A stretch of 64,000 nt of DNA, taken from assembly GCA_002255985.1 (NCBI GenBank), contig NKIR01000001.1, positions 490,914 to 554,913 of the forward strand, written 5' to 3'. The DNA comes from Sphingomonadaceae bacterium PASS1. GTDB taxonomy: Bacteria > Pseudomonadota > Alphaproteobacteria > Sphingomonadales > Sphingomonadaceae. Shown here piece by piece: positions 2,918-47,470 of the stretch. The notes under the pieces were generated by a model that saw only the letters and a list, made by a program, of their open reading frames with translations, was not told the origin of the DNA and made no database searches. The position numbers and the translations under genes were made by a program. Position 1 is the stretch's first letter. Each line of letters opens with the position of its first letter.

Positions 2918-3727
2918 TCAAACTCCCCTGTCGGTTTTATAACGTGTACCTGCTGGCGGCGGATCTTGCGGCGGCCCAGCAAAACATTGTGCAACGGCCA
3001 TCCATTGATGCGCGACTTCTCCGGTGACTGCAAGCGACGTATCGGCAATGTTGCGACATTGCGTCACAACCTGACAAAATTCGGAAGCGCTGCCCCTAAT
3101 GAGCCCACTGTCCGACGCCTCACCATATTCCCATATCGTTCCTGAAGGCGCAGTCAGGTGAAGCTGCGGCATTGGCCCAGGCGGGTCTTGGCGCCGGTTT
3201 TTCCACGTAAAGCCCCATGTATTGACGCCCAACCGAACGATATTGCCGATGCGGTCCGTATCCTGACGTGCGACACCCAGAACATCATAAACCGCCTGGG
3301 CATGTGCCCATGTTTCCATGAGACGCGCGGTTATGGAGCTTAGCGCGCTCATATCCGGCCCGACCCATTTCAGCCGCAGTTTTGGATCGGCCTTGGCAAA
3401 TGCAGCGGCTACAGTCTCTGTCCGATTTAGCCATGCCTGCAGCAAAGCCTGCCCAGAAAGTCCGTCCAGAAAAGACGCCTCAAAAGCAGGTAACTTCCCG
3501 CCCCGAACCCCCTCCATCATCGCGGCAACAAATGCACCAAATGCCGTCTCATCCTGCAACGACAGGTCCACCGCGATATTCCAGACATGCAAATGCCGGA
3601 TGATGTTGTTGATCGTCCATCCCTTAAACTGCGTTTGCGTTTCGAAATCAGAATCGCTCAGCGCAGCAAGACGCCCTGCGAAAGCTCTGCTCTCTTCCAA
3701 AAAGTCTGTTGCCTGCTGCATAACCAT
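2918..3727 (-). CDS. TIGR03084 family (DinB/maleylpyruvate-isomerase-like) protein
   Basis: A 269-residue protein that I recognise as the TIGR03084 family, related to mycothiol-dependent maleylpyruvate isomerase/DinB-fold proteins. The N-terminal region has the fold's helical motif with WTINNIIRHLHVWN around residues 40-52, and WAHAQAVYDVLG around residue 140 supplies another likely metal-ligand histidine. Its start overlaps the acyl-CoA dehydrogenase stop (TGATG at 3729-3725), so translation is probably coupled. A GTG at 3730 is an alternative. Family members lie next to acyl-CoA genes, but the reaction is unknown. Mycothiol is not expected in this lineage, so isomerase activity should not be assumed. 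Confidence 0.75.
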   Translation of the reverse strand: MVMQQATDFLEESRAFAGRLAALSDSDFETQTQFKGWTINNIIRHLHVWNIAVDLSLQDETAFGAFVAAMMEGVRGGKLPAFEASFLDGLSGQALLQAWLNRTETVAAAFAKADPKLRLKWVGPDMSALSSITARLMETWAHAQAVYDVLGVARQDTDRIGNIVRLGVNTWGFTWKNRRQDPPGPMPQLHLTAPSGTIWEYGEASDSGLIRGSASEFCQVVTQCRNIADTSLAVTGEVAHQWMAVAQCFAGPPQDPPPAGTRYKTDRGV

Positions 3728-5004
3728 CACCCCATAAATCCGAACAAATGTCCCGCCACTTTGCGCATTTGGATCTCCTCTGCACCTTCGGTAATTCGAT
3801 AGCGCCGATGGTGTCGGTAGATATGTTCGAACGGTTTATGCCGTGAATAACCGATGCCACCATGCACCTGCATCGCGAAATCGGCTGCATTGCAGACCAA
3901 CCGGTTTGCCTTGTAATTACACATGCTGACTTTGTCCGATAACCGCACGGCGACTTCAGGCTTGGTCATGCTGTCCATTTCGGCGGCCGTTTTGCAAATC
4001 AATAGGCGTAGCATCTCCGCGTCGGTTTGCAGTTCTACCAAGGGGAACTGAATGGCCTGATTTACCGCAAGAGGTTTGCCAAATGGCTTACGCTCACGCG
4101 CGTACTTCACCGCTTCATCAATGCAATATTGGGCTGCGCCGAGCGAACTTGCCGCTTGGCGAATACGGTTCTCGTGCACAAAATGCTGCGAAACAGCCAG
4201 GCCATTGTCCAATTCCCCAAGGATAGCGCTTTCGGGCACCCAGACATCGGTATATTTAACCTTGGGGTGGTCGGTGGGCATATTGAACGTCCACATATAT
4301 TCGCCAATTTCAAATCCTGGCGCGTCCGTTGGGACAACAAAACAGGTAATGCCGCGCGCTTTGCCATCTTCACCGCTGGTGCGCGCAAAGGTCATCACGT
4401 GCGATGTATAGGGCAGCCCGGTCGTCCACATCTTGTTGCCGTTGATGCGATAGCCTGCAACGCCGTCACGCATTTCAGGCACCGCGCGCGTATCCATATG
4501 CGTTGCGTCAGAGCCATGATCTTCTTCGGTCAGGCCAAAGCTCCAACCCATTTTGCCCTCGAGCATGGGCGGAATAAACGCGGCCTTTTGTTGCGGCGTT
4601 CCAAAATCACGCAGCATCAAAACCTGCACAAGATTGCCGACAATGCTGCTTTCGTTCTGCAGGTCGTTATGCAGGCCTAACCCCTTGTGCGCCAGATGAT
4701 GCCGGATGACCGCCATCGCCAGATTGGAGCCATTTTTACCGCCAAATTCTTGTGGGATAGCAAAGCGGTAGTGCCCCGCCTTGTCCGCCACCTGCCGCAT
4801 TTCGGCCAGCAATGCCCACCAATCAGCACGCGGGTGACCGTCATTATCCCAATCGGTCCGCGCATTTTCGCGGCGGTGATCAAAAAAACGTATATTGTCG
4901 TCGCGCGCCTCGATCGGTTTGATTTCCCGATCAATGAACGCGTCAAGTTCGGCCAGATAGTCGGTGATCTCTGTGGGAATTTCGAAGAGCATTAGATTGT
5001 CCAT
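3727..5004 (-). CDS. Acyl-CoA dehydrogenase family protein (candidate partner of APH-type kinase)
   Basis: A 425-residue acyl-CoA dehydrogenase. WSFGLTEEDHGSDATHMDTRA and GNKMWTTGL are the middle-domain FAD and substrate segments. The C-terminal helical domain carries RKPFGKPLAVNQAIQF, MQVHGGIGYSRHKPFEH and RITEGAEEIQMRKVA, where the glutamate in TEG fits the catalytic base position. The gene overlaps the upstream kinase by 13 bases and the downstream TIGR03084 gene by one base. Acyl-CoA dehydrogenases next to an APH-type kinase recall the ACAD10/ACAD11 fusion proteins and LvaA/LvaC of levulinate catabolism, which act on 4-hydroxyacyl-CoAs. That function here is inference from context. Confidence 0.9.
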   Translation of the reverse strand: MDNLMLFEIPTEITDYLAELDAFIDREIKPIEARDDNIRFFDHRRENARTDWDNDGHPRADWWALLAEMRQVADKAGHYRFAIPQEFGGKNGSNLAMAVIRHHLAHKGLGLHNDLQNESSIVGNLVQVLMLRDFGTPQQKAAFIPPMLEGKMGWSFGLTEEDHGSDATHMDTRAVPEMRDGVAGYRINGNKMWTTGLPYTSHVMTFARTSGEDGKARGITCFVVPTDAPGFEIGEYMWTFNMPTDHPKVKYTDVWVPESAILGELDNGLAVSQHFVHENRIRQAASSLGAAQYCIDEAVKYARERKPFGKPLAVNQAIQFPLVELQTDAEMLRLLICKTAAEMDSMTKPEVAVRLSDKVSMCNYKANRLVCNAADFAMQVHGGIGYSRHKPFEHIYRHHRRYRITEGAEEIQMRKVAGHLFGFMG

Positions 5005-6323
5005 TTTTTTCTGGCCGCGGCCAAGCCTGAATATTTGGGTTGGTCAGCCGCAAGTTTGGCGAGCGACTGCGCTTTTAGCTGCGCCAGCAACCCCGGGGTG
5101 GTGCGTGATTGTCGGCCCGCCAAAAATGCATCGGAAAGCGACTTATCATGCACGTTTAACGGCGCAGTCGCTTCGCGCTGTAACATGCCCAGTGCGTTCA
5201 CGGCCACGGCAGCCATGAAACGGTCACGTCCCTTTGCCTGTGGTTTGATATCAGTCTCAATCCAACGCGCGAGCGCCTCGAGCATTTCTGTTGCGGATGG
5301 TTCCCCCAGCCGTCGCGGTGCTACAGGCGACGGCAGCGTAATTGGGCCACGTTCGGCTTCAGGCGCATCCTCTTCCAATAGCATCAGCAAATCAATTTCG
5401 GTTTCCGAAGTCCGCCGTCCAATGACGGCACGCTCTAACCCTTCGTCGAGACCGCTGCGCCAGATATCGGCCATTTGCAGACAGCAGACGCCCCACCACA
5501 ATGTCGAATAGATAAGCCACCAACGGAAGCGTGCAGGTTCGACCGATTTACCGCTCACGCTTTCATAGGCGGCGAAAAATTCGTCCAACGGGCCAATGCC
5601 AAATGCGGGCCGGTCAATATATCCGAATCGCCAGCTGTTAATGCAGCCAAAGGCGAGATCCTGATGCCGGTCCCCCCGATGCGCCAATTCCCAGTCGAGA
5701 ACAGCGGCGAGACCATCAGCATCGACCATGATATTGCCCATGCGAAAATCGCCATGAAGCAACACTGCAGAAACCGGCGAAGGCAAATGGTCCTCAAGCC
5801 ATTTAAACGCGAGCGCCATTACTGCGCGATCGCCGCCAAAGTTGATGAACCGTTCCCGCAACTCAACGAGCAAGCTTTCCGCGCTGGTTTCAGGCATCTG
5901 AGGCAGCGTGTCAGACCGCACCGCGTGAATTGAAGCCAGTTCGCGGGCGAAATCATTCAACAATCCCGGTGGAGCGTTAGGCAAGATTTTTGCAGGGTTA
6001 ACCTCTGCCTCCACACGGCGCATCACATAGCCGGTTCCGAGATGATCAGCAGCGCTTACCTCACCCATTATTTCTGGGGCCTTCACCCCCGCCGCAAAGG
6101 CCGCACGAACGACAGCCGCCTCCACGTCATGGCCATAGGTTCGGCCTGCCATCATGTCCGCCGATGGTGACCGCCGCAGCACATATCCCTGCCCCGCATA
6201 ATCAAACGACCAGCTTTCCATGTTCGCGCCACCTGTCAGCCGGACAAGGTTCTCAGCGTCGGCGGTTCCCCCGAACACCCGCCGGGCAAAGGTCGTGACC
6301 AATAAGGCGATGCCGTCGCTCAA
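4992..6323 (-). CDS. APH-type phosphotransferase with C-terminal DUF6285-like domain
   Basis: A 443-residue aminoglycoside-phosphotransferase-fold kinase. It has the catalytic loop VLLHGDFRMGNIMVD and the metal-binding AVLDWELAHRGD about 20 residues later, as in ACAD10/11 kinase domains. After a proline-rich linker (PITLPSPVAPRRLGEPS) the last 110 residues (EMLEALARWIETDIKP, FMAAVAVNALGMLQRE) look like the small DUF6285 protein usually encoded separately beside such kinases. TTG at 6323 was chosen because it forms a TTGA start-stop overlap with the preceding gene; the frame stays open to 6434. The likely role is phosphorylating a hydroxyacyl-CoA for the adjacent dehydrogenase, by analogy with LvaA/ACAD11. 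Antibiotic resistance is unlikely. Confidence 0.82.
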   Translation of the reverse strand: MSDGIALLVTTFARRVFGGTADAENLVRLTGGANMESWSFDYAGQGYVLRRSPSADMMAGRTYGHDVEAAVVRAAFAAGVKAPEIMGEVSAADHLGTGYVMRRVEAEVNPAKILPNAPPGLLNDFARELASIHAVRSDTLPQMPETSAESLLVELRERFINFGGDRAVMALAFKWLEDHLPSPVSAVLLHGDFRMGNIMVDADGLAAVLDWELAHRGDRHQDLAFGCINSWRFGYIDRPAFGIGPLDEFFAAYESVSGKSVEPARFRWWLIYSTLWWGVCCLQMADIWRSGLDEGLERAVIGRRTSETEIDLLMLLEEDAPEAERGPITLPSPVAPRRLGEPSATEMLEALARWIETDIKPQAKGRDRFMAAVAVNALGMLQREATAPLNVHDKSLSDAFLAGRQSRTTPGLLAQLKAQSLAKLAADQPKYSGLAAARKKWTI

Positions 6324-6715
6324 ACGGTTTGCCCCTGCCAATATGCAAATATCCCGTCCTGTAATTTGCGGATATGGGCTTGCGCCTGTGGTCCAGTCCA
6401 TTCGCCCTGATAGTCGGTGCGCCCGGTCCACCACCCTTGCCCCGGCAAACCGTCGCCTTCACGCACCACAAGCACGGCAAGCGCTGGTCGACCTTCGGCG
6501 AGCGTTATCTGGTCAATCTTATCCAACGTCTTGCAGACCGCGCGCATCTTTGGCCGTGTAAACCGGAAACCAAGGTTCAGCAGCAACTCAGAATAGCTGA
6601 TTGCCCGGCCATCGCGTGCGCATTGCTCGAGAATGACCTTAATTCGCGCAACATCGTGCAGCGCGGAAACATCCGCCGCGGGATCGCTCAGAAATTCTTC
6701 AAGGACAGGGTCCAA
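6320..6715 (-). CDS. Conserved-looking hypothetical protein
   Basis: A 131-residue soluble protein that I do not recognise. The first 70 residues are helical (VARIKVILEQCARDGRAISYSELLLNLGFRFTRP shows the pattern, including a possible winged-helix segment), followed by LAVLVVREGDGLPGQGWW and an aromatic C-terminus ending HIRKLQDGIFAYWQGQTV. No signal peptide, membrane segment or cysteine pair is obvious. It lies eight bases after the nitronate monooxygenase-like gene and overlaps the kinase start by four bases, so it is almost certainly translated as part of the operon. It could be a small DNA-binding or accessory subunit, but nothing visible proves that. Confidence 0.7.
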   Translation of the reverse strand: MDPVLEEFLSDPAADVSALHDVARIKVILEQCARDGRAISYSELLLNLGFRFTRPKMRAVCKTLDKIDQITLAEGRPALAVLVVREGDGLPGQGWWTGRTDYQGEWTGPQAQAHIRKLQDGIFAYWQGQTV

Positions 6716-6723
6716 AGCCGCTC

Positions 6724-7665
6724 CTAAAGATAGTCGTTGCGCATATTGTTCATAACATCGTGGAATTCTTCCATGACTTCGTCGATGATTTTTTTCGAAG
6801 GCTTCACCGTATCAATGCGTCCCGCAACTTGTCCGGACAGCGCGATCGCAGCTTCCATGTCACCGCCAAAATACAAATCGAGCACGCCGCGCATTTCGCC
6901 CATGATATTTTCCGAAGGCGTCACATCCAGCTTTTCCGTCCGGTCCGTACGCAGCGCACGCAGCGCCGGGCCCGGGCCATGGCGGTTTAGGAACAGCGTG
7001 TCTGTTTCCTTGGCGTTTATGATCGCGTCTTTCCAGTTTTGATGGACTGGCGATTCCGCCGCGCTGACCATCCGTGTACCCATTTGCACAGCTTCGGCAC
7101 CTAGCGCGAACGCCGCCGCCATCGTCCGTCCACAGACCATTCCGCCGGCGGCAACGATCGGTACGTCGACTTTGCTCCTTATGAGCGGCAACAGGACCAT
7201 GAGCGCAACATCTTTGGGATTTTTAAACCCGCCGCCCTCGCCGCCTTCGACGACCAAGCCATCGACACCCGCCTCAATCGCCTTCAACGCGCCGGCTAAC
7301 GTAGGGACCACATGAAACACGGTTAGCCCCGCAGCCTTCAGCGGACCGCAATATTTGTTCGGATCGCCCGCCGACGTAGTGACGAATTTTACGCCCTGAT
7401 CAACGACGAAATCTACGATACCGGGATCGCGGACAAAGGCTTGCGCGATGTTCACGCCAAATGGCTTGTCCGTCAGTTCGCGCATCTTGATGATCTCTGC
7501 GCGCACTTCCTCCAATTGGCCAGATGACGTTTCAATGATCCCAAGTCCACCGGCGTTTGAAACGGCCGAAGCCAGTTGCGCCCGCGCGATCCAGCCCATG
7601 GGGGCCTGAATGATCGGATATTCAACGCCAAGCAATTCGGTAATGCGGTTTTTAATAGGTTTCAT
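6724..7665 (-). CDS. Nitronate monooxygenase / enoyl reductase-like FMN protein
   Basis: A 313-residue TIM-barrel flavoprotein of the 2-nitropropane dioxygenase (NMO/FabK) superfamily. It begins ITELLGVEYPIIQAPMG and contains SNAGGLGIIE, VEGGEGGGFKNPKD, PIVAAGGMVCGRTMAAAFALGAEAVQMGTRM, all typical FMN-binding strands. The usual catalytic histidine of NMOs (GGH) is replaced by phenylalanine (GGF), so classical nitronate oxidation is doubtful. In acyl-CoA operons such proteins may act on enoyl thioesters, which is inference. The start at ATG 7665 is four bases after the DUF1330 stop; a longer frame to 7737 would overlap that gene by 68 bases. Confidence 0.85.
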   Translation of the reverse strand: MKPIKNRITELLGVEYPIIQAPMGWIARAQLASAVSNAGGLGIIETSSGQLEEVRAEIIKMRELTDKPFGVNIAQAFVRDPGIVDFVVDQGVKFVTTSAGDPNKYCGPLKAAGLTVFHVVPTLAGALKAIEAGVDGLVVEGGEGGGFKNPKDVALMVLLPLIRSKVDVPIVAAGGMVCGRTMAAAFALGAEAVQMGTRMVSAAESPVHQNWKDAIINAKETDTLFLNRHGPGPALRALRTDRTEKLDVTPSENIMGEMRGVLDLYFGGDMEAAIALSGQVAGRIDTVKPSKKIIDEVMEEFHDVMNNMRNDYL

Positions 7666-7669
7666 GATG

Positions 7670-8083
7670 TCAGCGTCCAATCTGGCTTGTGCGGATGTTG
7701 AGTTGGCCGGCGAGGCCAGCTTTGCGATGAACTTCAATCGCCCGATATTCCGGGGAGGACATCATCTTCTGCATGGCCGCCAATGAAGGGTATTCGACCA
7801 ACGCAACCATGTCCCAAAGTTCTTCGACCTCGCCAATCATAAGTCCCGTAACTTGCCCGGCATAAATCTGCTTCCCGTCGACCGCAGCAAGACACGCCTG
7901 AATACCCTTCCCATAACGGGCATAAGCCCTAGCGCCACTAAGGTCAGCATCGCTGCCATCGGCATACTCTGCGGTCTCTTTGAATTTCAAAAGGTTGACC
8001 ATCACAAAGGGTCCATTTTCAGGACCGCCGAAAAAGGACGTGATTTGCTCCGTGCCCGGAAAAACTGCGTTCTCGACGCGCAT
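7670..8083 (-). CDS. DUF1330 domain protein
   Basis: A 137-residue protein with a C-terminal DUF1330-like ferredoxin-fold domain: PFVMVNLLKFKE, ARAYARYGKGI, WDMVALVEYPSLAAMQKMMSSPEYRAIEVHRKAGL. Family members are small dimeric alpha-beta barrel proteins of uncertain function, often near catabolic genes. The ATG at 8083 has a very strong GGGGGAGAG ribosome-binding site. It is the first gene of the seven-gene minus-strand operon, with a TTAATC-type dyad immediately upstream. Confidence 0.8.
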   Translation of the reverse strand: MRVENAVFPGTEQITSFFGGPENGPFVMVNLLKFKETAEYADGSDADLSGARAYARYGKGIQACLAAVDGKQIYAGQVTGLMIGEVEELWDMVALVEYPSLAAMQKMMSSPEYRAIEVHRKAGLAGQLNIRTSQIGR

Positions 8084-8103
8084 CGTTGTTCTCTCCCCCT
8101 AAT

Positions 8104-8119
8104 TTAATCATCTGCTTAA
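8104..8119. promoter_or_regulatory. TTAATC-N4-G(C)TTAA operator candidate, site A
   Basis: TTAATC at 8104-8109 and GCTTAA at 8114-8119 form a dyad with a four-base spacer and one mismatch. The symmetry extends outward (ATTTAA/TTAAAT). It sits about 20 bases upstream of the first gene of the kinase/acyl-CoA dehydrogenase operon. Spacing and half-site match two other dyads at 12832-12847 and 47455-47470. Confidence 0.5.
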
Positions 8120-8205
8120 ATCAGAGGAGACGTGTTGTAAAAGCGAATATGTGCAGCTCGTGACATTGCCTTAATTACGATAACTTCGAAGGCCAAAAAG
8201 AGCGG

Positions 8206-8850
8206 CTAAGACACGATTTTCATATGCGAACCGGCAGCCGATTGGATCGCCATCTTTTTACCTAGCCCCTGAAACACTGTATCCACGATCATGGCCAGTT
8301 TGGTAACGCTTAGCTTCGTTGTCCCGATGTAAAAAAGCATGTCGGGGTTTGTATAGCAATGTAGCATTTGGTTGATGAGCGACACCGCTTCATCAATAGA
8401 CAGGCCTCCGAAATAGCCCTGCTCCATTGCTTCGGCCACGATGATCGCAAGATAATGGTCGCCAAGGTCCACGTAACCGCGCACCACTTCGAAATGCTGC
8501 TGACCAATTTCCAGATAGCTTTTTAACAGCTCGGGCTCGGCCTCATACTGCTCGACCGAGGCCAAGTATCGCCGGACGAAATATTGATACATTTTGTCGC
8601 GAACCGGCAAGTCGGACTCGGTTACTTCGACCATGATACGGATTTTTTCCGCGAAGAAACGCTCGGCTACAGCCTCTAACAAAGCTTCCTTGTTGTCGAA
8701 AAAGCGATACAGGTTTGACGGCGACATACCCGCCGCCGCGGCCAAATCCGTCATGGAAATATCGACCGACCCGCGTTTGCGAACAAGGTCATCTACCACT
8801 TCAAGCAACGCGGTTCTGCCGGCTTCTATATCAGTTTGTGGCCGGGCCAT
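8206..8850 (-). CDS. TetR/AcrR family transcriptional regulator
   Basis: A 214-residue TetR-type repressor. Residues about 10-60 form the DNA-binding domain, with the helix-turn-helix in ISMTDLAAAAGMSPSNLYRFF followed by DNKEALLEAVAERFF. The ligand-binding C-terminal half is all-helical and unassigned. It lies between two operons for acyl-CoA/lipid metabolism, both preceded by TTAATC-type dyads, so it is a candidate for their regulator. It is encoded downstream of dinB with a 54-base gap that includes its own dyad. Inducer and operator are not known. Confidence 0.9.
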   Translation of the reverse strand: MARPQTDIEAGRTALLEVVDDLVRKRGSVDISMTDLAAAAGMSPSNLYRFFDNKEALLEAVAERFFAEKIRIMVEVTESDLPVRDKMYQYFVRRYLASVEQYEAEPELLKSYLEIGQQHFEVVRGYVDLGDHYLAIIVAEAMEQGYFGGLSIDEAVSLINQMLHCYTNPDMLFYIGTTKLSVTKLAMIVDTVFQGLGKKMAIQSAAGSHMKIVS

Positions 8851-8867
8851 CCTGCTTCCTGTATTAT

Positions 8868-8882
8868 AACTGCATAACAGTT
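8868..8882. promoter_or_regulatory. AACTG-N5-CAGTT dyad upstream of the TetR gene
   Basis: AACTG at 8868-8872 and CAGTT at 8878-8882 are exact reverse complements about 18 bases upstream of the TetR start, a usual place for an autoregulatory operator. The sequence differs from the TTAATC dyads, which argues against this TetR binding both or shows that its own promoter is controlled differently. Confidence 0.35.
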
Positions 8883-8904
8883 TTCTGATATAACGTCGAT
8901 TGTT

Positions 8905-10014
8905 TCATTTTTCAATGTGGTCAAATGCAAATTGTCCCTGCATTGTTGGTTCTGCGGCAAGTTCACTTTGGTCAACAAGTCCCGACAATGTCAGCCCAAG
9001 CAGGCGAACGCCCATTTCGACGGGCAAAATCTGGTCCAACAGCGCATGGCCCAGCGTCGCGATTGCCGAACGGTCAGAAAGTATATGCCCAACCGTCCGC
9101 GACCGTGTGACGGTCCGGAAATCGGAATAGCGCGCCTTTAAGACCAGAGTCTTTCCTTGAGCCTGATTACGGTCAATACGATCCCAAACGATGTCGACAA
9201 TATCGTCTAACGCTTCGCGTAACTCTTCCTCGCTGCGTTTATCTTCAAAATAGGTGCTTTCAGCGCCAATGGATTTACGCACAGCATTGGCGTTCACGGG
9301 GCGGTTATCGATCCCGCGCGCTGCATGAAACAGATACGCCCCCCAACTGCCAAAATGCTGCGACAACCAAATCTCGTCCTTTTGGACAAGGTCTGCACCT
9401 GTGTGCACGCCAAGCTTGGCCATTTTTTCGGCAGTGCGTGGCCCCACACCGTGGAACCGCCGCACAGGTAAGCTTGCGACAAATTCCGGCCCCTGTTCGG
9501 GCAATATCACACACATGCCATCAGGTTTATTCTGGTCACTCGCCAGCTTGGCGATAAATTTGTTGTAGCTCACGCCAGCGCTTGCGGTCAGTCCGGTTTC
9601 TTCGCGAATGGCCGCACGAATAGCTTTGGCAATTTTGACTGCCGAACCAATGCCCTGTTTATCCTGCGTGACATCAAGATACGCCTCATCCAGCGATAGC
9701 GGTTGGATTTCATCGGTGTGCCGGGCAAATATCTCCCGAATGTGACGCGACACAGCCTTGTACGCCTCAAATCGCGGCTTCACGAAAATCAGGTCCGGAC
9801 ATTGCCGCAATGCGGTCACCGAAGGCATGGCAGACCGCACGCCAAACGCCCGTGCTTCATAGCTTGCCGCCGCCACAACGCCGCGTTTGGACGATCCTCC
9901 GACGGCGACTGGCTTACCACGCAGTTCGGGATTATCGCGCTGCTCTACGCTGGCGTAGAACGCATCCATATCAACATGGATGATTTTGCGCATCTCTCCG
10001 GTGTCGGCCACCAT
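8905..10014 (-). CDS. dinB: DNA polymerase IV (Y-family, error-prone)
   Basis: A 369-residue Y-family polymerase for translesion synthesis. It has the catalytic motifs VDMDAFYASVEQ and LSLDEAYLDVT, the helix-hairpin-helix region FHGVGPRTAEKMAKLGV, and the little-finger domain (RKSIGAESTYFEDKRSEEEL onward). The C-terminus is short; a beta-clamp motif may lie in the last residues (GQFAFDHIEK). ATG at 10014 and ATG at 9993 are both possible starts. The family's usual start corresponds to MRKIIHVDMD (9993). It follows the acyl-CoA ligase by 12 bases, an unusual partner. No SOS box was recognised. Confidence 0.93.
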   Translation of the reverse strand: MVADTGEMRKIIHVDMDAFYASVEQRDNPELRGKPVAVGGSSKRGVVAAASYEARAFGVRSAMPSVTALRQCPDLIFVKPRFEAYKAVSRHIREIFARHTDEIQPLSLDEAYLDVTQDKQGIGSAVKIAKAIRAAIREETGLTASAGVSYNKFIAKLASDQNKPDGMCVILPEQGPEFVASLPVRRFHGVGPRTAEKMAKLGVHTGADLVQKDEIWLSQHFGSWGAYLFHAARGIDNRPVNANAVRKSIGAESTYFEDKRSEEELREALDDIVDIVWDRIDRNQAQGKTLVLKARYSDFRTVTRSRTVGHILSDRSAIATLGHALLDQILPVEMGVRLLGLTLSGLVDQSELAAEPTMQGQFAFDHIEK

Positions 10015-10026
10015 GCAACCGAATGC

Positions 10027-11709
10027 TTAAGGCCCGACCGCGGAACGCAAAGCCTTGCGGTCAAGCTTTCCGATCATGGTTTTTGGCAGGACGTTGAGGA
10101 TGGTGACACCTTGAACCCGTTCATGCTTTCCAAGACGCGGGTTCAGCCACGCCGTCAATTCGGCACCATCCTCCGTAGCGCCATCGTGCAACGTCACAAA
10201 TGCGCGCGGTACTTCGCCAAGATACGCATCCGGCACGCCGATAACCAATGCCTCTTTGACCGCAGGATGCTTGTAGAGGACATCTTCGACCTGACTTGGA
10301 AACACCTTGAAGCCGCCCACGGCGATCATGTCTTTCAACCGATCAACGATGTGGATGAAGCCGTCTTCGTCGATGGTCGCAACGTCGCCTGTGCGCAAAT
10401 ATTTGCCTAGAAACACCTCGGCATCCGCATCTTTACGGTTCCAATATCCGCACATCGTCTGCGGACCTGAAAACACCAATTCGCCCGGTTCACCGTCGGG
10501 CGCTGGCTTGCTCGGGTCTTCCTTGTCGACCAATTTCACATCGGTGCCGGGAACGGGTTGACCAATGCTGCCGATCTTGTTGATACCCTCATACGGATTG
10601 CACGACACGACGCCTGAGCTTTCGGTTAGCCCGTAACCTTCAATGACGACTGCGCCCGTTACCTTTTCAAAACGTTCCTTCAGTTCCGCCGCCAAAGGTG
10701 CGCCACCCGAGATACACGCGCGCAAGCTGGTGAAGTCGGTTTTCGTGACATCCGGGCAATCGAGCAATGCTTGATACATTGTCGGCACGCCGGGCAATGA
10801 TGTCACCTTAGTGCGGTTAATGGCCGCCAACGCAGCGCGCGCCTCGAAACGTGGCAGCATCACAATTTCCCCGCCATTGGCGACGGTACGATTAAGCACC
10901 GTTGCATTGGCAAATACGTGGAAAAACGGCAGCACACCCAGAATCCGGTCATCTGCAGCGCCATTGGGCTGGTTCACCGCACTGTGCGGATCCAGCATGT
11001 TAATCTGCCGCGCGTTCGCCGTTATGTTCTGGTGGCTGAGCATCGCACCCTTTGGCGTGCCCGTCGTACCGCCAGTATATTGAAGCTGCGAAATGTCTTG
11101 TTCCGGCGTGCAAGGCTGGACAGCATAGTCGCCATCATTTGCGATCAGCGTCGCATAATGCGTAATTCTGCTGTCGTCAGGTATTGCGGCGAAATCGCTG
11201 CGTTTCAACAACCGGTAGGCCCAGCTTTTCGCCTTGGGCAATGCCTCGGCGACGCTGCCAACAATCAGTTCCTTCAGGCTGCTGTTGTCCAGAACCTTGA
11301 TAGCTGTCGGCAGCAATGCTGCAGCTGAAACGGTGAACAAAATAGACGTACCGCTGTCAGCCACCTGATGTGCCAGTTCATCAACAGTGTATAAGGGTGA
11401 GAAGTTAACCACGGTCGCACCGGCGGCAAGTGCGCCATAATAAGCCGCGATATAATGCGGGACATTCGGCAGAAAAAGACCGACATGGTCCCCCCGGCCA
11501 ATACCTTTATCCTGAAGACCGCGCGCCACGCGCCGGACGGTGTCCGCCATATTGGCGTAGCTATATTTACGACCCATGAAATCGGCGATGGCCGCACGGC
11601 CCATGCGTTCGGCGGACTGGAAAAACATGTCGTGCAAAGCCAACGGCACAAAATGTTGGTCCCATTTTACAGGGTGCAGGTAACGACTGTTCCAGATATT
11701 TTGTGCCAT
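10027..11709 (-). CDS. fadD: Long-chain-fatty-acid-CoA ligase
   Basis: A 560-residue AMP-forming acyl-CoA synthetase that activates fatty acids with ATP and CoA. Motifs are YTGGTTGTPKGAMLSHQN (phosphate loop), GYGLTESSG (adenine motif), YLRTGDVATIDEDGF and IVDRLKDMIAVGGFKVFPS (hinge), and the catalytic C-terminal lysine in PKTMIGKLDRKALR. The start at ATG 11709 lies eight bases after the upstream hydrolase stop. A GTG at 11757 is possible but would overlap that gene. With the hydrolase it forms an operon downstream of dyad site B. The exact chain-length preference cannot be read. Confidence 0.9.
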   Translation of the reverse strand: MAQNIWNSRYLHPVKWDQHFVPLALHDMFFQSAERMGRAAIADFMGRKYSYANMADTVRRVARGLQDKGIGRGDHVGLFLPNVPHYIAAYYGALAAGATVVNFSPLYTVDELAHQVADSGTSILFTVSAAALLPTAIKVLDNSSLKELIVGSVAEALPKAKSWAYRLLKRSDFAAIPDDSRITHYATLIANDGDYAVQPCTPEQDISQLQYTGGTTGTPKGAMLSHQNITANARQINMLDPHSAVNQPNGAADDRILGVLPFFHVFANATVLNRTVANGGEIVMLPRFEARAALAAINRTKVTSLPGVPTMYQALLDCPDVTKTDFTSLRACISGGAPLAAELKERFEKVTGAVVIEGYGLTESSGVVSCNPYEGINKIGSIGQPVPGTDVKLVDKEDPSKPAPDGEPGELVFSGPQTMCGYWNRKDADAEVFLGKYLRTGDVATIDEDGFIHIVDRLKDMIAVGGFKVFPSQVEDVLYKHPAVKEALVIGVPDAYLGEVPRAFVTLHDGATEDGAELTAWLNPRLGKHERVQGVTILNVLPKTMIGKLDRKALRSAVGP

Positions 11710-11716
11710 GCGCGCT

Positions 11717-12817
11717 TTATGCCGTGTGATACCATCCAACACCATCGCGGATTTCACATTTTATCCGACCGGCAAAGTGCAGGTAGCGCAAATGCGCCTG
11801 CGCCTCACCCGTGGCCAAACCGTAAACCGTGTCATCAATTTCACGGTCGAACAGCAATGCAAATGTATCGACCGCGCGCATTTCTGTGTGCCGCAGGGCC
11901 GCTTCCAACTTGTCGAGCCTTTCATGGTGGCCAGACGCCAGCTTATCTAACCGGACATGCACACCGGTGAACGGCTCCCCATGTGCTGGCAGGACCAGCA
12001 TATCGGTGGGCAATGCGTCACGAAACTTTGTAATGGAGTCCAGCCACTCACCCAACGGGTTAGCATTAGGCTCGCTGTCCATAACGGAAACATTTGAAGT
12101 GATGCGCGGCAAAATCTGGTCACCCGCGATGATCATGCCATTGTCGAAATCGACAAGGCAGGCATGTTCGGGTGTGTGTCCGCCGCCTGTCATCACGGTC
12201 CAATCCCGCTGCCCGACGCGGATCACTTGTCCGTCGTCTATGCGGACATGTCCCGTGGGTAGCCGAGAGACAGCGCGCGCAAATCCGCCCCAACCGGCCT
12301 TGCGCACCTCATCTATGCGTTCTTCATCATAACCTGCAAAGCGGCGGTTGTTTAATACATCTTCGGGCGGTTGGTCCAACTGATCTGCGATAAGCATCCG
12401 CGCCATCAACCATTCGGTCCGGTTCATCCAGACGGGGACTTTGAACTTATTCGAGAGCCATCCCGCACAGCCAACATGGTCGGGGTGAAAATGGGTTACA
12501 AAAATTCGCTTGAGTTCGCGGTCAGCCAAATTCCCCGCGAACATCGCTTTCCACTGCTCAATCGTCGGCGGCATGAAAAGGCCGGTGTCCACCAGCGCAT
12601 AGCGGGCCTCCCCCTCGTCCAATAGCCAAAGGTTGATGTGGGCCAGATTGCCGGGCACAGGCATGCGCGTCCAGCCAATGTCCGGCGCGATAGGGTAGAT
12701 TTCTCCATAAGCCGGAGCATGATCCCCCAAGGGATATGTTAGCCCCTTAAATTCTTTTGCTTCAAATCCATGGTCGGCAAGCGACGCGTCGTAATCAGGG
12801 GTTGCTTTGGTAGCCAT
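11717..12817 (-). CDS. MBL-fold metallo-hydrolase
   Basis: A 366-residue metallo-beta-lactamase-fold hydrolase. The metal-binding signature is THFHPDHVGCAGWL, with further ligands in GGGHTPEHACLVD and LPAHGEPF. A C-terminal helical domain (RLDKLASGHHERLDKLEAALRH) is like that of the LACTB2/glyoxalase-II-like subgroup. The product is probably a cytosolic thioester or lactone hydrolase, inferred from co-transcription with the acyl-CoA ligase. It is the first gene of its operon. A near-perfect operator-like dyad lies 11 bases upstream of the ATG. Confidence 0.85.
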   Translation of the reverse strand: MATKATPDYDASLADHGFEAKEFKGLTYPLGDHAPAYGEIYPIAPDIGWTRMPVPGNLAHINLWLLDEGEARYALVDTGLFMPPTIEQWKAMFAGNLADRELKRIFVTHFHPDHVGCAGWLSNKFKVPVWMNRTEWLMARMLIADQLDQPPEDVLNNRRFAGYDEERIDEVRKAGWGGFARAVSRLPTGHVRIDDGQVIRVGQRDWTVMTGGGHTPEHACLVDFDNGMIIAGDQILPRITSNVSVMDSEPNANPLGEWLDSITKFRDALPTDMLVLPAHGEPFTGVHVRLDKLASGHHERLDKLEAALRHTEMRAVDTFALLFDREIDDTVYGLATGEAQAHLRYLHFAGRIKCEIRDGVGWYHTA

Positions 12818-12827
12818 ACCCCACCCG

Positions 12828-12851
12828 TGCCTTAATCAAGCGATTAAGGCA
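12828..12851. promoter_or_regulatory. TTAATC-N4-GATTAA operator candidate, site B
   Basis: Arms TGCCTTAATC (12828-12837) and GATTAAGGCA (12842-12851) are perfect ten-base reverse complements around a four-base AAGC spacer. The site is directly upstream of the MBL hydrolase/acyl-CoA ligase operon and 15 bases past the end of trcR. It could also act as a hairpin for trcR, but there is no T-tract. Confidence 0.6.
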
Positions 12852-12866
12852 ATGACGACGTCGTCC

Positions 12867-13568
12867 TTATTCGCCCGCTTTTTTGAACAAGGTATCAGCT
12901 GTCAGCTCTGCCTTTTCGGTGGTTTCTACTTCACCGTTGAGAGCAGCTTCCGCGCGGCGCGCCGCTTCGGTACGTTCTGCACGCAATTCTTCGATCAATG
13001 CTTCACGATCCGTCCCAAGGCGCGCATCATTTGCCGCAGTGTTATCAATGCCTGCCTTTTTAGCGGCGCGATTGACGATGGCATCGAGCTCGCGTTGCGA
13101 AGTCAGACCAAGCGTTACGGGATCCTTTGGCTGGATTTCAGCAATGTTCCAATGGCTGCGATCGCGAATGGCGGCGATGGTGTTGCGCGTCGTTCCGATC
13201 AACTTGCAGATTGCGCCATCCGAAATTTCCGGGTGGTTACGCAACAGCCAAGCGATGCCGTCTGGCTTATCCTGACGCTTTGAAACTGGCGTATAGCGGG
13301 GCCCTTTTGTGCGGCGCACCTGATCCGGGCCCTTGGACATTTGAAGGACATAATCTTCATCTGCCTGACCCTTTTCGATTTCGTCCATCGACAATTCGCC
13401 TGCGTGCACAGGATCGCGACCGGTATATTTCGAGCCAGTCATGTCATCCGCCATAGCCTGAACTTCAAGAATATGGATGCCGCAGAACTCGGCAATTTGC
13501 GAGAAGCTCAAACCAGTATTGTCGACCAACCAAGCGGCAGTCGCATGTGGCATCAAAGGGGTGGCCAT
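12867..13568 (-). CDS. trcR: DUF1013 protein, cell-cycle transcriptional regulator TrcR homologue
   Basis: A 233-residue protein matching DUF1013, the family of the alphaproteobacterial cell-cycle regulator TrcR, which associates with RNA polymerase. An N-terminal helix-turn-helix-like part (AAWLVDNTGLSFSQIAEFCGIH) and a second one (AWLLRNHPEISDGAICKLIGTTRNTIAAIRDRSHW at about 105-140) flank a charged segment. The C-terminal tail is a likely coiled coil rich in Glu, Ala and Arg. Start ATG 13568. It has no operon partner on its 5-prime side, which is a divergent intergenic region. Confidence 0.85.
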   Translation of the reverse strand: MATPLMPHATAAWLVDNTGLSFSQIAEFCGIHILEVQAMADDMTGSKYTGRDPVHAGELSMDEIEKGQADEDYVLQMSKGPDQVRRTKGPRYTPVSKRQDKPDGIAWLLRNHPEISDGAICKLIGTTRNTIAAIRDRSHWNIAEIQPKDPVTLGLTSQRELDAIVNRAAKKAGIDNTAANDARLGTDREALIEELRAERTEAARRAEAALNGEVETTEKAELTADTLFKKAGE

Positions 13569-42845: not shown

Positions 42846-45041
42846 TTATGCAGCGGCTTTGTACAGCGTCTCGCCCTTGTCCGCCATGTCGCGGAAGCTT
42901 TTAGGTGGCGCAAAACGATTGCCAAATCGCTGTGCCAAATTGTCGGCCGTACGGACGAAGTTCTCTAAGCCCACAGTGTCGATATAGCTCATCGGGCCAC
43001 CCGTGTACGGCGCAAAGCCCCAACCGAAGATAGCCCCCAGATCAGCGCTCTGTGGATCGCGTACGACCTCTTCTTCAAAGCATTGCGCGGTTGCAATCAA
43101 CTGAATGTACAACAGGCGCTGTTTCACTTCGTCGACCGATGGCTGGTCTTCGGCGAGCGGGTAATGCTCCGCCATGCCCTGCCACAGGGTCTTGCGCTCA
43201 CCTTTTTCGTCATAGTCGTAGAAGCCGGAGCCGAAACGACGGCCCTTACGGCCAAGTTTGACCACCATCAATTCCATGAAGTCTTCCGTGCCGCTTGGTT
43301 GATACGCGTCGCCCAATTCCTTCTTGGTCGATTGCATCACATCATAGCCAAGCTGCAATGTGGTTTCATCAAGCAATGCCAGCGGGCCAATCGGCATGCC
43401 AAGCGACTTTGCGGCATTTTCGATCAGCGCAGGCTTTACGCCCTCGGTCACCAGCTTCATCGCCTCACCCATGTAAGGCGGGAATACACGGTTGGTGAAA
43501 AAGCCGCGGACGTCCTTTACGACGATCGGGGTCTTCTTGATCTTTGCGTTATAATCAAACGCCGCGGCCATCGCCCGCTCGCCCGTCAGTTCACCGGGGA
43601 TGATTTCCAGCAGCGGCATTTTTTCAACCGGCGAGAAGAAGTGCAGCCCGACAAACAATTCCGGACGTGACGAATTCTTCGCAAGACCCGTAATCGGCAA
43701 TGTCGACGTATTCGACGCGAACACGACATCGGGACCAATCACCGCTTCTGCCTTCTTAATGACATCTGCCTTTACATCGGGCCGTTCAAACACGGCTTCG
43801 ATGATGAGATCGACATCTTTCAGATCGTCGTAATTGTCGGTCGGCGTAATCCGCGCCATGAACGCATCGCCTGCTTCCTTGGTCATCTTGCCACGGCTGA
43901 CGGCCTTGTCGATGATCTTGCGGCTGTAATCGACCGCCTTGTTGGCATCTTCAAGGCTGCGGTCGAGAACGACAACGTCCATGCCACCCTTAACGGTAAC
44001 GTGCGTGATGCCCGAGCCCATGAGGCCACCGCCCAATACGCCAACCTTTTTAATCTCAACCGCAGGGACACCCGCAGGGCGGCCAGCGCCCTTTTCAGCG
44101 GCTTGTTTGTTGATGAACAAGGTGCGGATCATGTTCTTCGCTTGGCTGCCCGAAAGCAGTTTCGTGAAATATTTGGATTCAACACGCAGCGCAGTGTCGA
44201 ACGGCAAAATTGAACCTTCATATAGACACGACAAAATGGCCTTGATGGCGTCAAAATTGCCTTTGCTTTCCTTATGCGCCATCGCGTTCAGGCCAACGAA
44301 TAGCTGAACCGCACGCGGGTCCATCGCGCCTGCACCGCCCGGGAATTTGAAATCCTTCTTGTCCCAAGGCGCTGTCGCCTTCGGATTGGCCTTTACCCAT
44401 GCCTTGGCATTGGCGATCAAATCCGCAGCCGGCGCAACGTCGTGCACCAGTCCCTGCGCCTTGGCCGTTGCCGGGTCGAGCGACTTGCCCTGAATAATCA
44501 TCATCGCTGCGTTCTGCAGGCCAATGAGGCGCGGCGTCCGCTGTGTTCCGCCGCCACCGGGTAACAGTCCAACCATCACTTCGGGCATACCAAGCTGGAT
44601 TTTTGGATTGTCCGCAACGACGCGGTAATGGCACGCAAGCGCGAGTTCCAAACCGCCGCCTAGCGCCAGACCGTTCAGCGCACAGGCGACTGGCTTTGCC
44701 GACGCCTTGCCACTGCTCAGGTCCTTGGCGGATTGACCGCCGGATTCCATTTTGCGCAGCAACGCGTTCAAAGCGAAAGCCTGGTCGAACGCTTCTTTCG
44801 TGCTGTTCGCCTTTGCGCCGCCCAGCATGGTCAAGTCAGCACCGGCCAGGAAACCGGATTTCTTGCCCGATGTAATGACCGCGCCCTTTACGGCTTCGTT
44901 CGTGGTGAAATCGTCGACCCATTTGCCGAATTCTTCAATCAATGCGCCATTCCATACGTTCATGGATGCATCAGGAAGGTCGATCGTCAAAAGCGCAATG
45001 CCATCGGCGTCGATATCGACGGAGAAAGTTGTGTAAGTCAT
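42846..45041 (-). CDS. 3-hydroxyacyl-CoA dehydrogenase / enoyl-CoA hydratase (multifunctional FadJ/FadB type)
   Basis: A 731-residue beta-oxidation protein. The N-terminal crotonase domain (residues 1-300) has the oxyanion segments SGKKSGFLAGADL and ALNGLALGGGLELALACHYRV, with EVMVGLLPGGGGTQR. The dehydrogenase domain starts VEIKKVGVLGGGLMGSGI with FASNTSTLPI, LHFFSPVEKMPLLEIIPG and DVRGFFTNRVFPPYM. It catalyses hydration and oxidation of enoyl-CoA. Start ATG 45041; the frame is open upstream. Thiolase is immediately upstream by 14 bases. Confidence 0.95.
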   Translation of the reverse strand: MTYTTFSVDIDADGIALLTIDLPDASMNVWNGALIEEFGKWVDDFTTNEAVKGAVITSGKKSGFLAGADLTMLGGAKANSTKEAFDQAFALNALLRKMESGGQSAKDLSSGKASAKPVACALNGLALGGGLELALACHYRVVADNPKIQLGMPEVMVGLLPGGGGTQRTPRLIGLQNAAMMIIQGKSLDPATAKAQGLVHDVAPAADLIANAKAWVKANPKATAPWDKKDFKFPGGAGAMDPRAVQLFVGLNAMAHKESKGNFDAIKAILSCLYEGSILPFDTALRVESKYFTKLLSGSQAKNMIRTLFINKQAAEKGAGRPAGVPAVEIKKVGVLGGGLMGSGITHVTVKGGMDVVVLDRSLEDANKAVDYSRKIIDKAVSRGKMTKEAGDAFMARITPTDNYDDLKDVDLIIEAVFERPDVKADVIKKAEAVIGPDVVFASNTSTLPITGLAKNSSRPELFVGLHFFSPVEKMPLLEIIPGELTGERAMAAAFDYNAKIKKTPIVVKDVRGFFTNRVFPPYMGEAMKLVTEGVKPALIENAAKSLGMPIGPLALLDETTLQLGYDVMQSTKKELGDAYQPSGTEDFMELMVVKLGRKGRRFGSGFYDYDEKGERKTLWQGMAEHYPLAEDQPSVDEVKQRLLYIQLIATAQCFEEEVVRDPQSADLGAIFGWGFAPYTGGPMSYIDTVGLENFVRTADNLAQRFGNRFAPPKSFRDMADKGETLYKAAA

Positions 45042-45055
45042 GTTTTCGTTCCCGA

Positions 45056-46270
45056 TCAATTCACGCGTTCGATGATGGTTGCAGTGCCCATTCCGGCACC
45101 GATGCACAGCGTGGTGAGCGCAGTCGACTTGCCGGAACGCTCCAGCTCATCCAGCACGGTGCCAAGGATCATGGCACCTGTCGCGCCAAGCGGATGTCCC
45201 ATGGCAATGGCACCACCATTGACGTTGATGTCTGTATGGTCGACGTTCATCGCTTCCATGAAGCGCAGAACGACCGAGGCGAAGGCTTCGTTCAATTCCC
45301 ACACATCAATGTCGCTTTTGTCCATTCCGGCGCGCGCCAGCGCCTTTTGCGCAGCGAATTCCGGGCCCGTGAGCATGATGGCGGGTTCGGAACCGATGGA
45401 GGCCATCGATACGATACGTGCACGCGCCTTCAGGCCATATTTCTCGCCGGCTTCTTTCGTGCCGATAAGCACAGCGGCCGAACCGTCGACGATACCCGAG
45501 CTGTTGCCGGCATGGTGGACATGGTTGATCTTTTCGACATCAGGATAGCGCATGATGGCAATGTCATCAAAGCCGGGCATCATCGTGCCCATCATCTGGA
45601 ATGCAGGGGCCAACGCGCCCAATGACTGCATATCGGTTTCCGGACGCATCAATTCGTCATGGTCGAGGACGACTTCACCAATGACATCCCGGATCGGCAG
45701 GATGGAGCGCGCAAAACGCTTTTCGGCCCATGCCCGGCCAGCCCGCTTCTGGCTCTCGACCGCATAAGCGTCGACATCATCACGGCTATAGCCATATTTG
45801 GTGGCAATAAGGTCTGCGGAAATGCCTTGCGGGATGAAGTAATTGGCAATCGCCGAGCGCGGGTCGATGGGCCACGCGCCGCCGTCCGAACCCATGGGGA
45901 CGCGGCTCATCGATTCAATGCCGCCGCCGACAGCCAGATCGCATTCGCCCGACTTCACTTTGGCCGCAGCGATATTTGATGCTTCCAAGCCCGATCCGCA
46001 GAAACGGTTGACCTGAATACCCGACGTTGTGTGCGGATAGCCCGCAGCCAACACAGCGGTGCGCGTGATAACCGCGCCCTGCTCGCCCACTGGCGATACG
46101 CAACCAAAGGCCACATCTTCGATCTCTTCACCCGACAGACCATTACGGTCGCGAATAGCAGCCAGAACCTGCGCCGCGAGGTCGATGGGCGTTATTTCAT
46201 GCAGCGCGCCATCGGGTCGGCCCTTGCCACGCGGGCTACGCACCGCATCATAGATATAGGCTTCGGTCAT
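45056..46270 (-). CDS. Acetyl-CoA acyltransferase (thiolase)
   Basis: A 404-residue thiolase II with the acyl-accepting Cys in VNRFCGSGLEASN, the C-terminal GGAIAMGHPLGATGA and the catalytic Cys in TLCIGAGMGTA. It cleaves 3-ketoacyl-CoA with CoA as the last step of beta-oxidation. Two bases from the CoA transferase stop and 14 from the FadJ-like start, so a three-gene operon. Confidence 0.95.
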   Translation of the reverse strand: MTEAYIYDAVRSPRGKGRPDGALHEITPIDLAAQVLAAIRDRNGLSGEEIEDVAFGCVSPVGEQGAVITRTAVLAAGYPHTTSGIQVNRFCGSGLEASNIAAAKVKSGECDLAVGGGIESMSRVPMGSDGGAWPIDPRSAIANYFIPQGISADLIATKYGYSRDDVDAYAVESQKRAGRAWAEKRFARSILPIRDVIGEVVLDHDELMRPETDMQSLGALAPAFQMMGTMMPGFDDIAIMRYPDVEKINHVHHAGNSSGIVDGSAAVLIGTKEAGEKYGLKARARIVSMASIGSEPAIMLTGPEFAAQKALARAGMDKSDIDVWELNEAFASVVLRFMEAMNVDHTDINVNGGAIAMGHPLGATGAMILGTVLDELERSGKSTALTTLCIGAGMGTATIIERVN

Positions 46271-46272
46271 AT

Positions 46273-47430
46273 TCAGTCCTTATTTGCGACCACGGCGCCT
46301 GCCGCGATCAGTTGGGAGATGTCATCGGCGCTGAGTCCCGCTTCGGCCAATATGGCAGCGTAATCTGCACCTTTTGTTGCGATGTCGAAATGGGTTGGCA
46401 AAGGCTGCGTTGCAAGACGCGGCGCGACTTGAGGGTGCAGCCAACGACCGTCGGTGACAACCGCGTGGCGTTCAGCATTTACAGGATGTGACGCTGCCTC
46501 AACATAGTCGAGCACGGGCGTTACGCATGCGTCGGTACCGGCAAAAACAGCCTCCCAATCGTCACGCGTTTTGGTGGCAAACACATCCTCCAGCATTTCA
46601 TGCTGCTTCGCGAATGCGGCATGGTCATGCTGCCCGCCATAGGCGTCACGATCGATGGGCAAACGCTCCATCATTGCGGCAAAAAATTGCGGTTCGATAC
46701 AACCAACCGCCATGAACTTGCCATCCGACGTCATGTAACAACGATAGAATGGCGCGGCGCCGTCGAGTAAATTCGCCTCACGCTTCGTCCGCCATTGGCC
46801 AACGCCCGCCATGCCATGGACAAAGCTCATCAGGTTATGCGTGCCATCAACAATCGCGGCATCGACGATATTGCCACGGCCCGTCTGTGCACGCTCGATT
46901 ATTGCGACGAGGATGCCGTTGACGAGGAACATTGAGCCGCCGCCGAAATCACCGATCATATTGAGCGGCGGAACTGGCGGCTGACCGTCTTTGCCAATCG
47001 CGTTCAATACGCCCGTCATACCGATATAATTGATATCATGGCCCGCCATCTGGCTCCACGGGCCGGTCTGTCCCCAGCCGGTCATGCGGCCATAGATCAA
47101 GCGCGGGTTAATAGCGTGACAGACATCGGGGCCAACACCCATACGCTCGGTCACGCCCGGCCGCAGGCCTTCGATAAGGACGTCGGCAGTCTCGACAATC
47201 TTTAACAGCGCAGCCACGGCTTCAGGTTTTTTCAGGTCAAGAACCATCGACCTTTTCCCGCGCGCATCAATCCCCTTGGGGACGATCGAGCCGCCAGGAC
47301 GGTCAATCACAATCACATCAGCGCCCATGTCAGACAGCAGCTGGCCCGCATATGGCCCCGGCCCAATTCCAGCGAGCTCAACGACCTTAATGCCTTTTAA
47401 GGGACCCGTTTTTGCTGGAGAATCGGTCAT
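46273..47430 (-). CDS. CoA transferase / alpha-methylacyl-CoA racemase family (CaiB/BaiF)
   Basis: A 385-residue class III CoA transferase-fold protein of the alpha-methylacyl-CoA racemase type. IKVVELAGIGPGPYAGQLLSDMGADVI is the family start. GQTGPWSQMAGHDINYIGMTG contains the His/Asp pair used by racemases, and NLLDGAAPFYRCYMTSDGKFMAVG the central motif. It probably epimerises 2-methyl-branched acyl-CoAs before beta-oxidation. ATG 47430 has GGGAAAAG upstream; a perfect TTAATC dyad lies 25 bases upstream of the start. Confidence 0.9.
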   Translation of the reverse strand: MTDSPAKTGPLKGIKVVELAGIGPGPYAGQLLSDMGADVIVIDRPGGSIVPKGIDARGKRSMVLDLKKPEAVAALLKIVETADVLIEGLRPGVTERMGVGPDVCHAINPRLIYGRMTGWGQTGPWSQMAGHDINYIGMTGVLNAIGKDGQPPVPPLNMIGDFGGGSMFLVNGILVAIIERAQTGRGNIVDAAIVDGTHNLMSFVHGMAGVGQWRTKREANLLDGAAPFYRCYMTSDGKFMAVGCIEPQFFAAMMERLPIDRDAYGGQHDHAAFAKQHEMLEDVFATKTRDDWEAVFAGTDACVTPVLDYVEAASHPVNAERHAVVTDGRWLHPQVAPRLATQPLPTHFDIATKGADYAAILAEAGLSADDISQLIAAGAVVANKD

Positions 47431-47454
47431 GAAGCTTTTCCCAATATGGCGCAT

Positions 47455-47470
47455 TTAATCGCGCGATTAA
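47455..47470. promoter_or_regulatory. TTAATC-N4-GATTAA operator candidate, site C
   Basis: TTAATCGCGCGATTAA is a perfect 16-bp palindrome upstream of the beta-oxidation operon. It has the same half-site and four-base spacer as sites at 8104-8119 and 12832-12847. Confidence 0.65.

Follow-up and report, generated by a model that had tools for sequence, protein, structure and literature searches.

Sphingomonads are known for their ability to degrade oils, steroids, and lignin aromatics. FadR, PsrA, and FadP have been listed as regulators of fatty acid degradation, and FadP, a predicted TetR regulator with 17.9 genes per genome, was confined, within the classes studied, to betaproteobacteria; in the part of that survey available to this study, Sphingomonadales appeared for HutC only (PMC5343134). 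According to the available part of another report, EdcR of Caenibius tardaugens is a TetR repressor of a catabolic cluster, and its putative operator overlaps the -10 box (PMC8700777). This study analyzed a 64,000-nucleotide stretch of the genome of Sphingomonadaceae bacterium PASS1 (hereafter the window), in which the palindrome TTAATC-N4-GATTAA precedes operons for acyl-CoA breakdown. A search of the open literature, with subscription papers outside its coverage, yielded neither a fatty acid degradation regulator described for sphingomonads nor this regulon. Sequence comparisons indicated that a single repressor very probably docks at this palindrome and thereby controls many fat-burning genes in Sphingorhabdus and its relatives. 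Two TetR proteins were compared, namely TetR1, whose gene lies between two of the sites in the window, and TetR2, which is encoded in related genomes. We consider it probable that sites A, B, and C of the window (Table 1) are operators of a regulon by which TetR2 controls the breakdown of acyl-CoAs and alcohols in Sphingorhabdus and in some of the sphingomonads related to it.

A first-pass annotation of the window had reported perfect ten-base arms for site B, and these were confirmed, with an exact core. The annotation had also described the same half-site and spacing for sites A and B; the spacing and the left half agreed, whereas the right half-site of site A reads GCTTAA, with one mismatch to the motif. 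Site C was absent from that annotation. Within the window alone, four matches at up to two mismatches were found, a number within chance (shuffle mean, 1.58; four reached in 10 of 100 shuffles). The consensus of the inspected exact sites was TTTAATCG-NN-CGATTAAA, the core of which was fixed by design, because only exact sites were used for building it. The CtrA-type pattern TTAA-N7-TTAA was rejected as a description of the dyad, the spacing of which is N8.

The motif was then counted beyond the window against a reversed control. The window's own genome contained 10 places at up to one mismatch versus 2 for the control, and 5 exact places versus none. Each of the 25 genomes of the genus Sphingorhabdus carried 4 to 11 exact copies, amounting to 148 places versus 0 for the control, and the proposal that the dyads are conserved in relatives was thereby borne out. 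In 16 genomes from other families of the same order, the motif had 3 exact places and the control had 6 matches. Because 19 places versus 10 control places were obtained in the own genome at up to three mismatches, weak sites were counted only where an orthologue has a better site. Site B or a variant of it preceded 19 of 24 orthologues of the MBL hydrolase gene in the genus (13 exact, 5 with one mismatch, and 1 with two mismatches), and the version in G009 showed like changes in both half-sites; the other five orthologues had no upstream site within two mismatches. Site A followed the TetR1 gene at 16 of 25 loci, in most of which its odd half-site was preserved. One more locus had doubtful two-mismatch hits, seven lacked site A, and one broken TetR1 was left out of the assessment. 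Single sites may still be chance matches, although the motif as a whole is beyond chance.

To describe what the sites precede, the DNA around 40 exact sites from seven relatives was inspected (all sites of six genomes and four of the eight in G004). A gene start lay within approximately 110 bp downstream of 39 sites, and the remaining site was inside the 3' part of a gene. Acyl-CoA enzymes stood behind 22 of the 39, a raw count from the reading of the proteins: 10 acyl-CoA dehydrogenases, 6 thiolases, 2 enoyl-CoA hydratases, 1 carboxyl transferase, 1 CaiB, and 2 MBL-fadD operons. The other 17 included 2 GMC and 3 PQQ alcohol dehydrogenases, 2 P450s, 2 nitroreductases, and 2 AAA/MoxR genes, with single cases of a nitronate monooxygenase type, an aldehyde dehydrogenase, an alpha/beta hydrolase, a NUDIX gene, a TonB receptor, and an amidohydrolase; Pfam was run on ten examples of site-preceded genes. 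No regulator gene was noticed directly behind the 39 inspected gene-preceding sites. Further sites in the own genome preceded a nitroreductase, an AAA/MoxR gene, an acyl-CoA dehydrogenase with a thioesterase, a GMC oxidoreductase, a DsbA-type gene with an enoyl-CoA hydratase, and an amidohydrolase. The genes behind two weaker sites, an acyl-CoA dehydrogenase (C19) and a P450 (C12), have counterparts in relatives that are preceded by exact sites, and the one-mismatch site at C9:4053 had no clear target. Judged by eye, many sites lie 13-30 bp from the start codon and others 58-80 bp, and some are downstream of TTGAC-like hexamers, an arrangement that suits a repressor.

TetR2 consists of the domains TetR_N (PF00440) and TetR_C_9 (PF14514), with the conserved helix region NSALVKYYFGNK, and its PF00440 score of 26.9 bits exceeds the curated cut-off of 24, which places it in the TetR family. 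It was present in 24 of 24 genus relatives. In six of six genomes a thiolase-SDR-enoyl-CoA hydratase operon ended with the TetR2 gene and had an exact site upstream of its thiolase, and TetR2 occupied the same operon position in G008. Among TetR2 loci from named genomes, the best 80 of 275 were analyzed, and their titles named Sphingorhabdus, Novosphingobium, Blastomonas, Parasphingorhabdus, and unassigned sphingomonads. A thiolase, recognized by pattern and with an approximate start, was present in 64 of these loci, and in all 64 a site at up to two mismatches lay 22-41 bp before that start (38 exact, 11 with one mismatch, and 15 with two), against an expectation of 0.09 derived from the remainder of that DNA. 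Of the 16 loci without a recognized thiolase, 11 were ended by the contig, 3 had a site, and 2 had none at up to two mismatches. Two such Novosphingobium loci (L242:4895 and L257:4969) carried a three-mismatch site just before TetR2 itself. Distant homologues in G033 and G039 were 35-36% identical to TetR2; TAAT-N6-ATTA-like sequences before these homologues and the neighboring SDR gene were AT-rich and only suggestive, and were not used.

A common set of 149 family genomes (91 genera) was scored for exact sites, TetR2, and TetR1, with a close TetR2 defined by an E value of at most 1e-85 and a motif carrier by two or more exact sites. The results revealed at least two sites in 16 of the 18 genomes with TetR2 versus 1 of the 131 without it (Fisher 2e-18, a p value made too small by relatedness), and the single TetR2-less carrier was the window's own genome. 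By genus, at least two sites occurred in 9 of the 10 TetR2 genera and in no other genus. One site each without TetR2 was found in G044 and G076, and three genomes had one control match each. Conservation, gene content, and co-occurrence together render a shared acyl-CoA regulon at these dyads well supported, and the first-pass suggestion that the acyl-CoA genes share one regulator, probably of the TetR type, is sustained. We infer that TetR2 would sit on the operators and repress the regulon, including its own thiolase-SDR-enoyl-CoA hydratase operon, and that an acyl-CoA would release it; because the TetR2 operon stands under its own site, the feedback loop would be closed. The choice of an acyl-CoA as the putative ligand follows from the target genes and from what FadR, PsrA, and FadP are known to do.

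Several results weigh against the assignment of the sites to TetR2. The window's own assembly yielded no TetR2, and 2 of the 80 TetR2 loci, with sufficient upstream DNA, had no site within two mismatches. When six weaker TetR2 matches were included, the comparison became 16 of 24 carriers with sites versus 1 of 125. The TetR2 carriers G105 and G170 had no exact site; the variant TTAATCG-N2-CAGTTAA matched once in 22 genomes, in G170 and not in G105, and so did not account for the missing sites of that genus. The co-occurrence comparison covered only TetR1 and TetR2 among regulator families.

The absence of TetR2 from the own genome is likely an assembly gap. A 19-kb stretch of the close relative G008 comprising the thiolase operon, TetR2, and thrS had no long high-identity match in the own genome among the 40 of 151 candidates scored, and the matches obtained were short repeats and distant genes. 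The gene thrS is essential yet was unmatched, which argues for the gap; the assembly is 95.9% complete. On a 3.8-kb contig (G000:C24:1-3800, L319), a variant site is accompanied by a thiolase truncated at the contig end. The truncated thiolase shares 92.5% identity with the thiolases of a Sphingomonadaceae metagenome-assembled genome (MAG; L270) and a Novosphingobium MAG (L235), and the contig may therefore be foreign, or may be a second copy. Separately, a repeat of approximately 75 bp in G008 (L185:8485-8560, 9856-9937, and 12304-12376) had many own-genome matches on both strands and thus appears to be near-palindromic and interspersed.

The first-pass annotation had proposed TetR1 as the shared repressor, a reading that now seems very unlikely. 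Its gene adjoins site A, its orthologues occur in 25 of 25 genus genomes, and it is present in the own genome, where TetR2 was not found. TetR1 also correlates with the motif, more weakly than TetR2 does: at least two sites occurred in 14 of 37 TetR1 carriers versus 3 of 112 non-carriers. However, 23 of the 37 carriers had fewer than two sites, and of the 24 family genomes that have TetR1 but lack a close TetR2, the window's own alone had at least two. Three genomes (G062, G095, and G165) had sites and TetR2 without TetR1, and no site at up to two mismatches was found within 300 bp upstream of TetR1 in the 24 orthologue loci read. Autoregulation is usual rather than obligatory. Motif co-occurrence and the own promoter, taken together, did not place TetR1 in the regulon, and on these grounds it is probably not the regulator of the shared sites. 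The AACTG-N5-CAGTT dyad that the annotation had assigned to TetR1 is present at 8868-8882, but it is within chance, and only two of the 24 upstream regions (the own genome and G008) contained an exact copy. A core like TATATCAYAAAACTG, at approximately 8868-8900 of the window, is kept in most genus TetR1 promoters and may be a promoter or TetR1's own operator. Elsewhere, a 450-codon open frame with two TetR_N domains, resembling a TetR fusion, was observed at G000:C9 (matches 1015-1143 and 1663-1797; L014:877-2208).

It is also unlikely that another regulator, for example of the LysR or MarR type, was inherited together with TetR2 and binds the sites. Linked inheritance and binding would leave the same co-occurrence signal; against this stands the position of TetR2, which in four genera is encoded in the operon behind the site. 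An autoregulated TetR repressor usually has its gene in the operon behind its own site. That sites A and B act in RNA as hairpins, either as an attenuator or as a shielded ribosome site, is highly improbable. The RNA of both sites folds well (z about -3.3 for each), and the preserved arms of site B, with the paired changes in G009, would agree with a hairpin, but a protein-binding dyad yields the same palindrome. Folding of site C was no better than that of shuffles (z -0.24), the motif tracks TetR2, and a terminator at site B was rejected, as the site was not among the nine terminator-like sites found. The match count in the window alone would fit chance dyads, an explanation rendered almost negligible by the genus-wide excess over the control and by the retention of sites at orthologous promoters. 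The assignment of the sites to TetR2 is preferred.

The features of the window are listed in Table 1; gene names were assigned by reading the proteins, and examples were run against Pfam or NCBIfam. On the minus strand, the order is trcR (12867-13568), site B, the MBL hydrolase, the fadD-like ligase, dinB, TetR1, and site A, followed by DUF1330, the nitronate monooxygenase type, a 131-aa protein, the APH-type kinase, and the acyl-CoA dehydrogenase. The gene order given previously was as stated, with two amendments: the operon after site A has five genes and begins with DUF1330, and dinB lies between fadD and TetR1. The 131-aa protein of this operon had no Pfam match. In G001 (L060), the counterpart of the acyl-CoA dehydrogenase gene has an exact site immediately before it. 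A perfect palindrome, GACGACGTCGTC, lies at 12854-12865, directly beside site B and past the trcR stop codon. At site A, a hairpin in the minus-strand RNA (8080-8135, z -3.3) would cover the ribosome site AGGGGGAG.

Table 1. Candidate operators and genes of the window, with positions counted from its first nucleotide
Feature	Position	Strand	Remarks
Site A	8104..8119	.	TTAATCATCTGCTTAA; candidate operator, ~20 bp before DUF1330 gene; 1 mismatch
Site B	12828..12851	.	Ten-base arms; exact core 12832-12847 (TTAATCAAGCGATTAA); before MBL-fadD operon
Site C	47455..47470	.	Exact; before CaiB-thiolase-FadJ operon
Acyl-CoA dehydrogenase	3727..5004	-	PF00441
APH-type kinase	4992..6434	-	PF01636
Nitronate monooxygenase-type gene	6724..7737	-	PF03060
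DUF1330 gene	7670..8083	-	PF07045; first after site A
TetR1	8206..8850	-	PF00440 + PF17935; TetR gene of the first-pass annotation; probably not regulator of the sites
fadD-like AMP-binding ligase	10027..11757	-	PF00501
MBL-fold hydrolase	11717..12817	-	PF00753; first after site B
FadJ-like fatty acid oxidation complex alpha subunit	42846..45107	-	Best model, below its cut-off
Acetyl-CoA C-acetyltransferase (thiolase)	45056..46270	-	NF006090, over cut-off
CaiB-type CoA-transferase/AMACR-like gene	46273..47454	-	After site C; start probably 47430

The proposal can be tested directly, since it comes with a named regulator and its operator, a list of targets, a solved homologue, and DNA affinity purification sequencing (DAP-seq) data already in print. 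DAP-seq has been published for 44 regulators of Novosphingobium aromaticivorans (GEO GSE291618), and the available part of that report gives 77 peaks for Saro_1703 and 57 for Saro_0451, both of them TetR proteins (PMC12352068). If the proposal is true, DAP-seq peaks of a TetR2 orthologue would be centered on TTAATCGNNCRRTTAA upstream of genes for thiolases, acyl-CoA dehydrogenases, and enoyl-CoA hydratases. The PDB entries 2qtq/2rha ("Transcriptional regulator, TetR family") are a close homologue of TetR2 (E 7.4e-84) and share its helix region; the hit carries no function, and among the papers listed, one named both entries, a methods paper judged by its title.

By analogy, the regulon would work like the known fatty acid degradation regulons. 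As far as the available part of its description reaches, FadP resembles TetR2 in belonging to the TetR family and having many targets in fatty acid degradation and differs in its restriction to betaproteobacteria, a likeness drawn by description only. PsrA is of the TetR family and, in what was available on it, acts in the pathway proposed for TetR2; however, TetR2 scored 27 bits against the cut-off of 300 for the NCBIfam equivalog of Vibrio-type PsrA. The TetR-type FadR of Bacillus gave the best match of TetR2 to a fatty-acid-regulator model (E 7.6e-9), whereas the 35.6 bits fell below the equivalog cut-off of 200. EdcR shares with TetR2 the role of a TetR repressor, in its case of a catabolic cluster in a sphingomonad (PMC8700777, available part), and differs in its C-terminal domain (PF16859 rather than PF14514, which keeps TetR2 outside that group) and in its putative operator, TnnCnnTACnAnTnGTAnnGnnA. 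TetR2 is reasonably likely to be a master repressor that governs the breakdown of acyl-CoAs and alcohols in a section of the Sphingomonadaceae (10 of the 91 genera sampled), taking the place of FadR, PsrA, and FadP in this lineage with an operator of its own, which would give 2qtq/2rha a function.

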